Positions 1,824 to 5,674 of a stretch of DNA of 7,282 bases are shown piece by piece. The notes under the pieces were generated by a model. That model was not told the DNA's origin, did not search any database, and saw only the letters and a program-made list of their open reading frames with translations. Position 1 is the stretch's first letter; every line of letters starts with the position of its first letter. Made by a program: the position numbers and the translations under genes. Origin of the DNA: Lachnospiraceae bacterium UBA3863 (GTDB lineage: Bacteria; Bacillota; Clostridia; Lachnospirales; Lachnospiraceae); the NCBI GenBank assembly GCA_002392385.1, contig DGGX01000066.1:1-7282 (forward strand), given 5' to 3'.

Positions 1824-2930
1824 TCAGATGGTCTCGCCGCCCTGCAGCGCATCCTCCGCGGAGGTGTAGCTGCCCGCCACCTTCAGAGTCGTGCACACGC
1901 CGGCCAGCTCTTCCATGAGCTGCCGGCCTTTTTCTGTGGCCGTATCTCCCTCGATCTCCGCATAGAAGTAATAGTGCCAGGGCAGGTGCTTCATGGGACG
2001 GGACCGCAGGACCCGCATGTTGAAGCCGTGTCCGCTGATCACGTTGACGGCACGGGCCAACCCGCCCGCCTCGTCGCAGACGGTGAAGAGCAGGAGGAAG
2101 GCCCGCCCTGTCCCGCGCACGGGTGCCTCCACCGGGGAGAACACAGCGAAACGGGTCGTATTGGACCGGCTCTCATGGATGTGCCTGTCCAGGACCTTCA
2201 GACCGTACAGAGACGCCGTCTCCTCGCTGGCAATGGCCGCCAGGGAGGCGTCCTGCCTGTCCCGGACTGTCTGCGCGGCCACCGCCGTATTGGACATCTC
2301 CCGGGTCTCAAAGCCCCGCTCCAGGGTATAGGTCCGGCACTGGGCCAGGGCCTGGGGATGGCTGATCACGGTGCGGATGCCCTCCAGAGAAGACTCCGGG
2401 GTCCCCAGCAGGCAGTGATCCACGGCCATGTCATAGACGCCGTTGACATAGAGACGGCCTTCATAGAGAAGGTCCATGACCTGTCCGACCTCTCCCGCGT
2501 AGCTGTTCTCTATGGGCAGCACGGCCGTCTCGCAGTCGCCGTTCTCCACGGCCTGGTAGGCCTCCTCGAAGGAGCTGCAGGCCACCAGCCTGGCGTCGGG
2601 GAATATCCTGCGCGCGGCGATCTGGGCGAAGGCCCCCTCCACGCCGCTGTAGGCGACCCTGGTGCCCTCAATGAGACGGTGCTCGTACTGGCGGGTCCTG
2701 TGCATCACATCCTGGAGGAAGCACTGGTAGAGGCCCCTTTTCTCCGGATCCTTCACATTGGCGGCGCCGCGCTGCAGCACCCGCTCCTCCTGGGCCTTGT
2801 CCCTGACCGGCAGGCCGCGTTCCTTCTTCCAGGCGGCCACCGCCGCTCCGGCTCTCAGCCTGCGCTCGAACAGGGCCGCCATTTCACGGTCCACTGCCGC
2901 TATCTCCTGTCTTGCCTCTTCAATATCCAT
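1824..2930 (-). CDS. pheA: Bifunctional chorismate mutase/prephenate dehydratase (P-protein)
   Basis: This 368-residue fusion converts chorismate to prephenate and then phenylpyruvate, the committed branch to phenylalanine. An AroQ-type mutase domain covers residues 1-85, with R7, R24, K35, D44 and E48 matching active-site positions of the E. coli enzyme; Q47 stands where E. coli has R51. The dehydratase domain covers about 90-270, with VAYSGVEGAFAQ, PIENS (139-143), SHPQAL and the catalytic TRF (259-261). A C-terminal ACT domain (about 277-329) should bind phenylalanine. Its motifs read GGLA and RSRP rather than the E. coli GALV and ESRP. The start at 2930 was chosen over an upstream ATG at 2963 because AGGAGGAG sits just before it and directly overlaps the aroF stop. 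The gap to aroF is 10 nt, so the two are cotranscribed and probably translationally coupled. No terminator follows the stop. Confidence 0.96.
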   Translation of the reverse strand: MDIEEARQEIAAVDREMAALFERRLRAGAAVAAWKKERGLPVRDKAQEERVLQRGAANVKDPEKRGLYQCFLQDVMHRTRQYEHRLIEGTRVAYSGVEGAFAQIAARRIFPDARLVACSSFEEAYQAVENGDCETAVLPIENSYAGEVGQVMDLLYEGRLYVNGVYDMAVDHCLLGTPESSLEGIRTVISHPQALAQCRTYTLERGFETREMSNTAVAAQTVRDRQDASLAAIASEETASLYGLKVLDRHIHESRSNTTRFAVFSPVEAPVRGTGRAFLLLFTVCDEAGGLARAVNVISGHGFNMRVLRSRPMKHLPWHYYFYAEIEGDTATEKGRQLMEELAGVCTTLKVAGSYTSAEDALQGGETI

Positions 2931-2940
2931 GGTTCTCCTC

Positions 2941-3969
2941 CTAGAGCTGCTCCGCGATCTCATAGATCAGTCTCTCAGATTTCTCCCAGCCCAGGCAGGC
3001 GTCGGTGATGGACTTGCCGTAGCAGCCGCCGTCCACCTCCTGCCGGCCGTCCTCGATATAGCTCTCCACCATGAAGCCCTTGACCAGCCTGCGCACGTCC
3101 TCGCTCCAGCGGCAGCAGGACAGGACCTCCCGGATGATCCTGGGCTGCTGGAAGGGATCCTTGCCGGAATTAGCGTGGTTGCAGTCAATGATGACCGCCG
3201 GATTCTCCAGGCCTATCTTAGCATAGAGCTGGGACAGGTAGATGATGTCCTCGTAATGATAATTGGGGTGGGTGACGCCCTGGCGGTTTACATAGCCCCG
3301 CAGGATCGCGTGGGCGTAGGGGTTCCCGTAGGAGTGGGCCTCCCATCCCCGGTAGACGAAATCGTGGGGATGCTGGGCCGCCAGGATGCTGTTCATCATT
3401 ACGGTCAGGTCGCCGCTGGTGGGGTTCTTCATGCCCACGGCCACATCCATGCCGCTGGCCGTCAGACGGTGGTACTGGTCCTCCACGCTCCTGGCACCGA
3501 CGGCCACGTAGGCCAGAAGATCGTCCAGGTACCTGTAATTCTCCGGATACAGCATCTCGTCCGCGCAGGCGAATCCCGTCTCCTTGACGGCCCGCATATG
3601 CAGCTCGCGCATGGCGATGATCCCCTTGTAGAGGTCGGGACCGGCCCCCGGATCCGGCTGATGGACCAGGCCCAGATAGCCGTCTCCCGTCGTACGGGGC
3701 TTGCCCGTATAGATCCTGGGGACGATCAGGATCTTGTCCCTGACCTGCTCCTGGATCGGCATAAGGCGGGTGATATAGTCGATCACGCTGTCCTCATTGT
3801 CCGCGGAGCAGGGCCCGATAATGAGAAGAAGCCTGTCACTGCGGCCGCTGAAGATCTTCTTGATCTCCAGTCTCTGCCTCTCCACGGTCTCCGCCATGGC
3901 GGCTGTCAGGGGGTACATCTCCTTGGTCTCCATGGGCACTGTAAGCCTGCGGCTGAAAACCATATTCAT
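2941..3969 (-). CDS. aroF: DAHP synthase, class I (AroFGH type)
   Basis: This enzyme condenses phosphoenolpyruvate and erythrose 4-phosphate to DAHP, the first step of the shikimate pathway. It has 342 residues, close to the family's usual 350. Visible motifs in order are GPCS with metal ligand C54, KPRTT (90-94) for phosphoenolpyruvate binding, GARSVEDQYHR (158 onward), NHANS with H265, MVES with E302, and YGKSITDACLGWE with D324. Together these give the Cys-His-Glu-Asp metal site. The start at 3969 follows GAGAGGAGA at proper spacing; ATGs at 4005 and 3963 are possible but have worse sites, and the one at 4005 lies in the attenuator U-tract. It is the first gene of an operon with pheA, behind a Tyr/Phe-coding attenuator. 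The aroF label marks the family, and feedback specificity (Phe or Tyr) cannot be read here. Confidence 0.96.
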   Translation of the reverse strand: MNMVFSRRLTVPMETKEMYPLTAAMAETVERQRLEIKKIFSGRSDRLLLIIGPCSADNEDSVIDYITRLMPIQEQVRDKILIVPRIYTGKPRTTGDGYLGLVHQPDPGAGPDLYKGIIAMRELHMRAVKETGFACADEMLYPENYRYLDDLLAYVAVGARSVEDQYHRLTASGMDVAVGMKNPTSGDLTVMMNSILAAQHPHDFVYRGWEAHSYGNPYAHAILRGYVNRQGVTHPNYHYEDIIYLSQLYAKIGLENPAVIIDCNHANSGKDPFQQPRIIREVLSCCRWSEDVRRLVKGFMVESYIEDGRQEVDGGCYGKSITDACLGWEKSERLIYEIAEQL

Positions 3970-4003
3970 GCTGTTCTCTCCTCTCTTTCCGGTCTGATGA
4001 AAC

Positions 4004-4035
4004 AAAAAACGGCTCCGACAATACGTCGAAGCCGT
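4004..4035 (-). terminator. Attenuator terminator upstream of aroF (segments 3:4)
   Basis: On the minus strand ACGGCT (4030-4035), T4029 and CGAC (4025-4028) pair with GTCG (4016-4019), G4015 and AGCCGT (4009-4014). This gives an 11-bp stem with one G-U pair and a 5-nt loop, and a run of six T (4004-4009) follows. It sits 35 bp before the aroF start, after the promoter, so it can only serve to stop leader transcripts. Its 5' arm is also complementary to a segment inside the leader ORF. Confidence 0.88.
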
Positions 4036-4092
4036 GCGCCTTCTATAAAACTGCAGAGGACCGGTCAGATCCTGTTACCCGCAGGCACGGCT
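4030..4092 (-). promoter_or_regulatory. Antiterminator pairing (segments 2:3) of the aroF-pheA leader
   Basis: AGCCGTGC (4085-4092, segment 2, codons 25-27 of the leader peptide) is a perfect 8-bp complement of GCACGGCT (4030-4037, segment 3). Segment 3 is also the 5' arm of the terminator, so the two pairings exclude each other. Segment 2 can instead pair with ACGGCT at 4122-4127 (segment 1), which enclose a 7-bp hairpin AGCGGCT/AGCCGCT (4097-4115). That 1:2 structure would act as the pause and protector hairpin of a trp-type attenuator. The complementarity is seen directly; the mechanism is inferred. Confidence 0.75.
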
Positions 4093-4164
4093 AAAAAGCG
4101 GCTGGGCAAGCCGCTCCGTAAAGCCGTAAAAGTATGCTCTTTTCGAACATGCACTGCAGATCAT
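4075..4164 (-). CDS. Tyr/Phe-rich leader peptide of the aroF-pheA attenuator
   Basis: This is a 29-codon ORF whose start ATG (4162-4164) follows AAGGAG (4172-4177) at 7-nt spacing, as good a ribosome site as that of any real gene here. The peptide begins MICSACSKRA. Residues 11-15 are Tyr-Phe-Tyr-Gly-Phe, one more Phe lies at 24, and there is no Trp. TAA is at 4075-4077. Pairing segment 1 (4122-4127) lies within the aromatic codons, so a ribosome waiting for Tyr-tRNA or Phe-tRNA would cover it. Segment 2 (4085-4092) lies within about 15 nt of the stop codon, so a terminating ribosome would cover that instead. It is probably a cis-acting sensor rather than a functional protein. The ORF and its site are seen; translation is inferred. 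Confidence 0.82.
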   Translation of the reverse strand: MICSACSKRAYFYGFTERLAQPLFSRACG

Positions 4165-4195
4165 CGTAACACTCCTTATATACAGGCTGATGAGG

Positions 4196-4224
4196 AGTTT
4201 AACACTTCAAAGCAAAAAAGTCAA
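4196..4224 (-). promoter_or_regulatory. aroF: Promoter of the aroF-pheA operon
   Basis: On the minus strand the -35 box TTGACT (4219-4224), a 17-bp spacer and the -10 box TAAACT (4196-4201) lie just after the rhodanese stop. The predicted start near 4189 gives a leader of about 220 nt before aroF and puts the leader-peptide Shine-Dalgarno about 12 nt into the RNA. A TATATA at 4177-4182 was considered as an alternative -10 but has no matching -35. Confidence 0.7.
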
Positions 4225-4249: not shown

Positions 4250-4570
4250 TCACTTGACCATTCTGCCCGTGTAGTCCTGCACACCCCCGATATTCTTCAC
4301 GTTGGTGTAGCCCGCCTTCTGCAGAGCCGACACCGCCTTGCGGCTGCGGCCACCGCTGAGACAGTAGACGTAGATCGGCATATCCTTGTCATGGATGGCC
4401 GAGACTGTCTTGTCGATGGAACTCAGCGGAATATTCCGGGCTCCCTGCAGATGGCCGGCCGCGAACTCATCCCTGTCACGCACGTCGATCAGCATGGCGC
4501 GCTTCTGCCTTCTGTATTCCCTGTAGCCCTCGTTGATATCCGCCTTCTTAAAAAAATCAAAAAGTCCCAT
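4250..4570 (-). CDS. Single-domain rhodanese-like sulfurtransferase
   Basis: This 106-residue cytoplasmic protein is one rhodanese domain. LIDVRDRDEFAAGHLQGARN (residues 27-46) is the CH2-type motif, and YCLSGGRSRKA carries the active-site loop, with persulfide-forming C70 and R75 closing the six-residue loop. A C-terminal GGVQDYTG replaces the more usual GG..W.G with Tyr. The protein begins MGLFDFFKK, a short amphipathic stretch. Single-domain rhodaneses move sulfane sulfur between donors and thiol or cyanide acceptors; the physiological partner is unknown. The start at 4570 was chosen because AAGGAG (4577-4582) sits 6 nt upstream, whereas the ATG at 4597 has no site. The gene has its own promoter near 4610. 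No clear terminator separates it from the aroF promoter, although a GC-rich CCGG repeat lies just after the stop. Confidence 0.92.
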   Translation of the reverse strand: MGLFDFFKKADINEGYREYRRQKRAMLIDVRDRDEFAAGHLQGARNIPLSSIDKTVSAIHDKDMPIYVYCLSGGRSRKAVSALQKAGYTNVKNIGGVQDYTGRMVK

Positions 4571-5573: not shown

Positions 5574-5629
5574 AATGCAAAAACATTACCGAAGGCGCGC
5601 AGGCGTGTCTCCGGTAATGTTCGTGCATT
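5574..5629 (-). terminator. Long imperfect-palindrome terminator of fba
   Basis: AACATTACCG (5582-5591) and CGGTAATGTT (5612-5621) are perfect 10-bp inverted copies, and on the minus strand the stem runs into five T (5579-5583). It lies about 46 nt after the fba stop, as expected for its terminator. The dyad continues inward as AGGCGCG/CGTGTCT (5593-5599, 5604-5610) and outward as AATGCA/TGCATT (5574-5579, 5624-5629), giving a 56-bp palindrome, longer than terminators usually are. Confidence 0.75.
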
Positions 5630-5674
5630 CAAAGGTTCAGTGCGACGATCCCGTCAATCGTCTGTTCCCGCCGA

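Follow-up and report, generated by a model that had tools for sequence, protein, structure and literature searches.

The enterobacterial pheA, pheST and trp operons are governed by leader-peptide attenuators, which combine a short open reading frame (ORF) holding codons for the end product, alternative RNA pairings termed 1:2, 2:3 and 3:4, and an intrinsic terminator; PMC1262725 and PMC9413887 give background on them. Clostridia use T-boxes (RF00230), riboswitches that sense uncharged tRNA and control amino-acid genes. Here we analyse computationally the leader of the aroF-pheA genes on a 7282-base stretch (the window) of contig DGGX01000066.1 from Lachnospiraceae bacterium UBA3863, whose draft genome comprises 2.4 Mb in 252 contigs and is 73% complete. 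The leader resembles the enterobacterial systems in all three elements and differs from them in its mixed Tyr/Phe sensor ahead of aroF-pheA, in the position of segment 1 inside the sensor codons, in its clostridial host and in matching no Rfam leader family; T-boxes are common in the same genus, whereas the window leader has none. We conclude that this leader is likely, with a probability of roughly 0.85, to control transcription by ribosome-mediated attenuation in response to the supply of Tyr and Phe.

The closest published case that we met is uORFC-13-1 (PMC8632094), a group of 24 sequences from Acholeplasma and environmental samples that always lies upstream of aroF and has an upstream ORF (uORF) with a promoter, a ribosome-binding site and one or more Phe codons just before a terminator, for which its authors propose attenuation. 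The window shares with it the place before aroF, the presence of Phe codon(s) in a uORF and the terminator behind; by its published description, uORFC-13-1 belongs to another lineage and has at least one Phe codon where the window has a Tyr/Phe block. Other Firmicute examples include His-leader attenuators predicted in Peptostreptococcaceae (relatives of C. difficile), Erysipelotrichales and the B. cereus group (PMC9413887) and hisS/hisZ leaders in bacilli, where leader peptides in Firmicutes were called a notable finding (PMC2965389). These too are predicted leader-peptide attenuators, at positions that in other Gram-positives are occupied by T-boxes or repressors; they differ from the window in their amino acid, histidine, and in the genes concerned. 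The Leu-rich attenuator peptide of the S. aureus ilv-leu operon, which has genetic support and acts alongside a DNA-binding regulator (PMC5794164), is likewise leader-peptide attenuation in a Firmicute, for leucine and a different operon. In Actinobacteria no leader attenuators for Phe/Tyr were found (PMC1262725), and among the matches listed from the open-access literature none described Phe/Tyr leader peptides for Clostridia. The suggestion of a first-pass annotation of this DNA, made from the sequence alone, that a clostridial leader-peptide system sensing both Tyr and Phe may be undescribed needs narrowing: Firmicute leader attenuators and an Acholeplasma aroF uORF are known and the mechanism is classical, but little seems to have been described of its use, with fast turnover, on the aromatic pathway of Clostridia.

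Architecture of the aroF-pheA leader

The features of the leader and its surroundings, in the direction of transcription, are as follows.

End at 4250, minus strand (same strand as aroF): rhodanese-domain (rhodanese-like) gene, upstream neighbour of the leader
4219-4224, minus strand: -35 hexamer TTGACT, from a consensus scan
4200-4211, minus strand: TTTGAAGTGTTA motif, putative operator shared with other aromatic operons
4196-4201, minus strand: -10 hexamer TAAACT with TG ahead, from a consensus scan
4172-4177, minus strand: Shine-Dalgarno AAGGAG of the leader ORF, from sequence
4075-4164, minus strand: leader ORF of 29 codons plus stop, MICSACSKRAYFYGFTERLAQPLFSRACG, from sequence
4120-4134, minus strand: sensor codons 11-15, Tyr-Phe-Tyr-Gly-Phe (YFYGF), from sequence and ribosome scan
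4122-4127, minus strand: segment 1, ACGGCT, from folding without a ribosome
4097-4115, minus strand: local hairpin AGCGGCTTGCCCAGCCGCT within the 1:2 structure, from folding
4085-4092, minus strand: segment 2, AGCCGTGC, from folding and ribosome scan
4030-4037, minus strand: segment 3, GCACGGCT, from folding with the ribosome at codons 11-13
4009-4035, minus strand: intrinsic terminator hairpin (3:4), 12 pairs of which 7 GC, -18.5 kcal/mol
4009-4019, minus strand: segment 4, GTCGGAGCCGT, from sequence
4004-4009, minus strand: U-run of the terminator, six T, from sequence
2941-3969, minus strand: aroF, DAHP (3-deoxy-D-arabino-heptulosonate 7-phosphate) synthase, first gene under the proposed control, by profile match
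1824-2930, minus strand: pheA, chorismate mutase/prephenate dehydratase, second gene, by best matches below curated cut-offs

The promoter-like site, Shine-Dalgarno sequence, aromatic-rich ORF and segments 1-4 all lie exactly where the first-pass annotation had placed them, as does the run of six T (4009-4004) behind the 3:4 hairpin, the first T of which is able to pair within the stem. The locus thus has the classical parts of an attenuator: an ORF with a ribosome site, clustered end-product codons and a terminator before the gene. Segment 1 is part of the sensor itself, lying inside codons 13-15 (TAC GGC TTT), and the sensor therefore doubles as protector. The promoter-like site has a 17-base spacer between the hexamers and matches the consensus at 9/12 positions; the window contains six such sites, against 2.4 expected by shuffle. 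Terminator-like sites likewise number six, against 3.8 expected, and the 4035-4009 hairpin has the most pairs. The identity given earlier to the two downstream genes is also supported: AroF exceeds the cut-offs of two NCBIfam models (257 vs 173 bits for TIGR00034, the DAHP synthase model, and 345 vs 343 for PRK12755), and the best models for PheA are prephenate dehydratase and chorismate mutase, none of which reaches its curated cut-off.

The arrangement of the segments is unusual by chance. In segments 1-4 one 6-mer (w) and its reverse complement (rc) alternate as w, rc, w, rc ahead of a U-tail. This layout was seen in 0/5000 dinucleotide-shuffled versions of the 193-base stretch that starts at the leader ATG and upstream of 1/931 other genes, there with an AT-rich 6-mer. 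Taken singly, the 8-base 2:3 match is equalled in 39/2000 shuffles and the 6-base 1:2 match is not significant (537/2000). What stands out in the window is the arrangement of the segments, not each pairing.

Predicted folding and proposed mechanism

The switch was followed in a fold scan in which the RNA was masked up to the front edge of the ribosome, set at A+11, +13 or +15, and the polymerase was placed immediately beyond segment 3. With the ribosome absent, P(1:2) is 0.96 and P(2:3) is 0.00, and a ribosome at codons 6-8 leaves P(1:2) at 0.76-0.81. The antiterminating stretch begins at codons 9-10, immediately before Tyr11, and with the A-site on codon 11, 12 or 13 (Tyr, Phe, Tyr) P(2:3) reaches 0.97-0.98 for all three footprints. 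From codon 23 through the stop it is 0.00-0.01, and the complete RNA forms 3:4; a ribosome at the stop leaves neither 1:2 nor 2:3 in place. The three mutually exclusive pairings are thus placed for stall/stop switching in energy models, reproducing the behaviour that had been predicted from the sequence.

We infer from these features a transcription start at the promoter-like site, translation of the leader, termination at the hairpin and a response to Tyr and Phe, which would operate as follows. If no ribosome is translating close to the sensor, segment 1 would pair with segment 2, 3:4 would form and transcription would stop. Scarcity of charged tRNA-Tyr or tRNA-Phe would leave a ribosome waiting at codons 11-13 and covering segment 1; segment 2 would then pair with segment 3 before segment 4 is made, and the polymerase would continue into aroF-pheA. 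With both amino acids in good supply, the ribosome would reach the stop codon and sit over segment 2, leaving 3:4 free to terminate transcription.

Aromatic leaders in related genomes

Many relatives have analogous leaders ahead of the same genes of the pathway. The genus set comprises 62 genomes (the source genome and 61 others), with aroF matched in 51 and pheA in 57; 30 pheA loci were read. Leaders directly precede aroF in G018 (MLRQNAGAYFYGGYFFGTLDFGQSS) and G019, with the peptide AYFYGGYFFG, and precede pheA in G008, G028, G013, G026, G009, G076, G033 and G080; G013 has a second aromatic leader before aroE. Altogether at least 11/62 genomes, that of the window included, carry an aromatic leader before aroF, pheA or aroE, which is a lower bound because not every genome was scannable.

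In the wider family, AroF was matched in 216/250 genomes. Scanning 109 aroF upstreams (L210-L318, part of the match list) gave nine with an ORF of at least 4/7 aromatic codons within 400 bases, of which two, L242 (MKNNKFYYFYYFFNKDCPASMMFKD) and L301 (MTMKEFFYFYFYFFVKGCPLFVIFGV), were accepted by eye as leaders directly before aroF. L215 and L216 have a leader about 1.1 kb upstream of aroF, ahead of a gene reading as prephenate dehydratase, while the matches in L214, L221, L224, L225, L228 and L238 were not counted as leaders. Among 80 named AroF loci, mostly titled as metagenome-assembled genomes of rumen or gut Clostridia, 28 matched loose criteria and 21 have an aromatic leader, before aroF in L141 and before pheA or aroE in the other 20; those dropped were L117, L128, L129, L152 and L155 (3' end of pheA), L103 (after aroF), L090 (of unclear status) and, at a contig edge, the second ORF of L079. 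The 21 named loci, the window and nine genus leaders form a collection of 31, from which L188 and L189 were left out as having the same leader as L187. By tblastn the gene behind the leader is pheA in 25, aroF in four (window, L055, L075, L141) and aroE in two.

As a control, the long ORFs from a maximum of 150 loci were put through the same scan, with a ribosome site required and the window leader excluded. ORFs with at least 6/7 aromatic codons precede 0/900 other genes, 8/60 pheA, 1/35 aroE and 0/86 aroF genes; at 5/7 or more the counts are 2/900 (one of the two being the 3' end of a pheA), 13/60, 2/35 and 2/86, and at 4/7 or more, the grade of the window, 21/900, 16/60, 2/35 and 4/86. When a terminator found by a simple finder is added to the 4/7 grade, 1/900 other genes, 7/60 pheA and 1/35 aroE genes remain. 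Both the ORF starts and the terminator finder are crude, and the counts for pathway genes are therefore likely low. Leaders directly ahead of aroF are uncommon.

Because the window leader DNA has no homologue in the 61 other genus genomes, covariation was studied in another leader family. At nine loci the sensor codons are followed by GCGATGGA and then by a terminator opening with TCCACCGC. In L108 and L115, GCGATGGA is replaced by GCGATTGA, TCCACCGC by TCAACCGC, and the other terminator arm carries the corresponding alteration; this triple change preserves both 2:3 and 3:4 and may represent a single event. Of 500 shuffles, 12 and 10 equalled the nine-locus covariation scores. In an enlarged set of 14 sequences two pairs of the 2:3 helix are changed on both sides, one of them through this triple change, and the covariation score was reached by 1/500. 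Sliding by +3 columns gives a higher covariation score (0.147 vs 0.102) with fewer paired cells (64% vs 86%). With about nine candidates scored per genome, the GCGATGGA covariance model matched 0/392 genomes of the window's order and 4/391 of its class; it added no members from 9 genomes of a single family, and of the 80 named loci it matched the nine source loci and L139. L206, L207 and L209 also carry leaders of or like the GCGATGGA family; the genes behind them are, by the look of the sequence, probably a phenylacetate-CoA-ligase-like gene and an ATP-binding cassette (ABC)-type lipoprotein.

Several other leader forms occur. In the genus loci L046, L049 and L185-L192, pheA or aroE is preceded by leaders of which MSSSRMFNSTFWFYFYYLPL is an example, and the Phe/Tyr codons of several are themselves complementary to GTAAAAGTAAAAG just downstream; as read from the sequence, the sensor TTTTACTTTTAC of this family faces GTAAAAGTAAAAG directly behind it in several members, which would place sensor codons in a stem. 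L148 (2017-2200) has the leader MENRLYDTVRFYYWLSPCRQSRIAW followed by two tandem terminator-like hairpins. L111, L215 and L101 have leaders of 42-43 codons with two aromatic blocks (e.g. FAFTFF, FAGFYWRWYF) before pheA-like genes, which perhaps serve joint sensing of Phe, Tyr and Trp.

Conflicting evidence and alternative explanations

A number of results weigh against the attenuator interpretation or narrow it. In the folding models, full-length RNA at equilibrium favours the terminator even when the ribosome is stalled (P(2:3)=0.43-0.46, with 3:4 held in the minimum free energy structure), and antitermination therefore depends on 2:3 forming first, co-transcriptionally. A ribosome at codons 2-5 already gives P(2:3) of 0.46-0.85 in 9/12 settings, stalls at the non-aromatic codons 17-20 would also antiterminate (0.84-0.98), and a stall at Phe15 is predicted to be nearly ineffective (0.08-0.22). 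In the fold model the proposed sensing of both amino acids holds for Tyr11, Phe12 and Tyr13 and hardly for Phe15. When 14 leaders were put through a coarser ribosome scan, the states came apart in six (L114, L078, L108, L190, L100, L142), were unseparated or unclear in seven (L055, L075, L185, L186, L192, L242 and, on this measure, the window) and were reversed in L301.

Further difficulties come from the pairings. The 2:3 duplex energy of the window is ordinary for GC-rich sequence and not significant (z=+0.27), and it reaches p<0.05 in just 5/30 leaders (mean z -0.84; the scoring picked up no terminator for L049, and its choices for L108 and L148 look wrong), in a test that lacks the power to judge leaders one by one. 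Among the 31 leaders, only the window and L148 with 6 bases, and L191 and L192 with 5, have the strict four-segment layout. For the 14-sequence family, five members were found with the family's own model, one of the eight 2:3 pairs is broken in 13/14, and two of five measures, the counts of double-changed pairs and of pair types, are no better than in shuffles (156/500 and 470/500).

The distribution of the leaders adds to these points. Searched against the 61 other genus genomes, the window leader DNA matched in just three, over 22-28 bases, and no ORF of at least 4/7 aromatic codons occurs in the upstream stretches scanned of the nearest AroF relatives (76-80% identical; G068, G077, G063, G032, G067, G002, G012, G079, G017); before aroF, an ORF of this grade followed by a terminator from the simple finder was seen in 0/86 cases. 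The first-pass annotation had expected a conserved Tyr/Phe-rich ORF upstream of related aroF genes and had named homologous leaders without it as grounds for rejection. The expectation is borne out by the aromatic-rich leaders that many relatives carry ahead of the same genes and fails in the nearest aroF/pheA relatives, which partly brings in those grounds. With the leader DNA unshared and aromatic leaders present before the same genes, what is conserved is the device and not the window sequence, and we take the leaders in relatives as one logic built many times, in differing completeness.

The best-surviving alternative, which we nevertheless regard as improbable, is a variant scheme in which the leader mainly senses Tyr, acts through translation-coupled control or encodes a nascent peptide acting on the ribosome. 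The modelled contrast between stalls at codons 11-13 and at Phe15 fits such a scheme, as do several relatives that seem to have a sensor and segments 2, 3 and 4 without segment 1; yet the effective stretch includes Tyr and Phe codons alike, and the peptide varies freely among relatives while keeping its aromatic content, which speaks against a nascent-peptide sensor.

We also considered that 4035-4009 could be the plain terminator of the rhodanese-like gene, with the ORF arising by chance and the aroF promoter lying after the terminator. That gene does end at 4250 on the same strand, the shuffled window yields terminator-like sites at the rate given above, and the 1:2 match by itself is unremarkable. 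Against this, the only minus-strand promoter-like site near aroF lies between the rhodanese gene and the leader, with none after the terminator; the Shine-Dalgarno sequence is strong, the alternating segments were absent from all shuffles, an ORF of the window's grade with a terminator is found before just one of the 900 other genes, and similar leaders stand ahead of the same genes in relatives. On these grounds we reject a rhodanese-gene terminator with a spurious ORF as very unlikely.

A translation-independent sensor (T-box, riboswitch or protein-bound attenuator) is slightly less probable again: T-boxes do occur in 60/62 genus genomes (above the cut-off in 19) and the ribosome-free RNA is strongly folded (-76 kcal/mol), but the Rfam comparison proposed in the first-pass annotation, run with 4227 models on both strands of the window up to E=5, gave no match, RF00230 included, on which we reject a T-box in the window leader, ten relatives' loci contain only tRNAs at gathering scores, and what relatives have in common is an ORF rich in aromatic codons rather than a single fold. 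The source genome itself holds two T-box matches, one of them on contig 248.

A promoter motif and possible second control

The proposed ribosome-mediated attenuator may be accompanied by control at the promoter. The layout TTGACTTT-n5-TTTRAWGTGYTA is identical in the window and in the leader-bearing L242, L100, L123 and L132, all of which have the motif TTTRAWGTGYTR (window 4200-4211) at the same spacing behind TTGACTTT. The same motif precedes the leaderless pheA operons L177-L183. Of 18 distinct matches in 2.02 Mb, where 4.25 would be expected in all, 12 lie at aromatic-operon promoters, seven of these 12 coming from close relatives. TTTRAWGTGYTR may bind a regulator and is a possible operator; the TrpR family (PF01371) has no match in the source genome at its 73% completeness. 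In L181 and L182 the motif lies within an imperfect palindrome, TTAGC..GCTAA.

Elsewhere in the window, an inverted repeat, AACATTACCG/CGGTAATGTT (5575-5635), follows a fructose-bisphosphate aldolase gene and looks like an ordinary terminator.

Implications for aromatic amino-acid control in gut Clostridia

The many unrelated aromatic leaders across gut Clostridia are a more interesting result than the copy in the window. We lean towards the view that gut Clostridia possess lineage-wide, fast-turning Phe/Tyr(/Trp) leader-peptide attenuators on the aromatic pathway, in genomes that keep T-boxes elsewhere. Unrelated leaders of the same logic would stand before aroF, pheA, aroE and, less surely, the phenylacetate-CoA-ligase-like gene and the transporter lipoprotein. 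The window would be the textbook four-segment form, with sensor codons that hold segment 1, and several relatives a reduced three-segment form without segment 1; the shared promoter motif suggests a transcription-factor layer, as in E. coli trp.

An attenuator of this kind brings a Tyr/Phe sensor and a further bacterial lineage to a mechanism that is commonly taught with enterobacterial examples. It suggests that a single pathway in gut Clostridia gained leader-peptide control many times, beside T-boxes in the same genomes, and how attenuators arise and are replaced becomes testable by comparing close relatives. Recognising these leaders would also aid the prediction of aromatic amino-acid output in gut and rumen bacteria.

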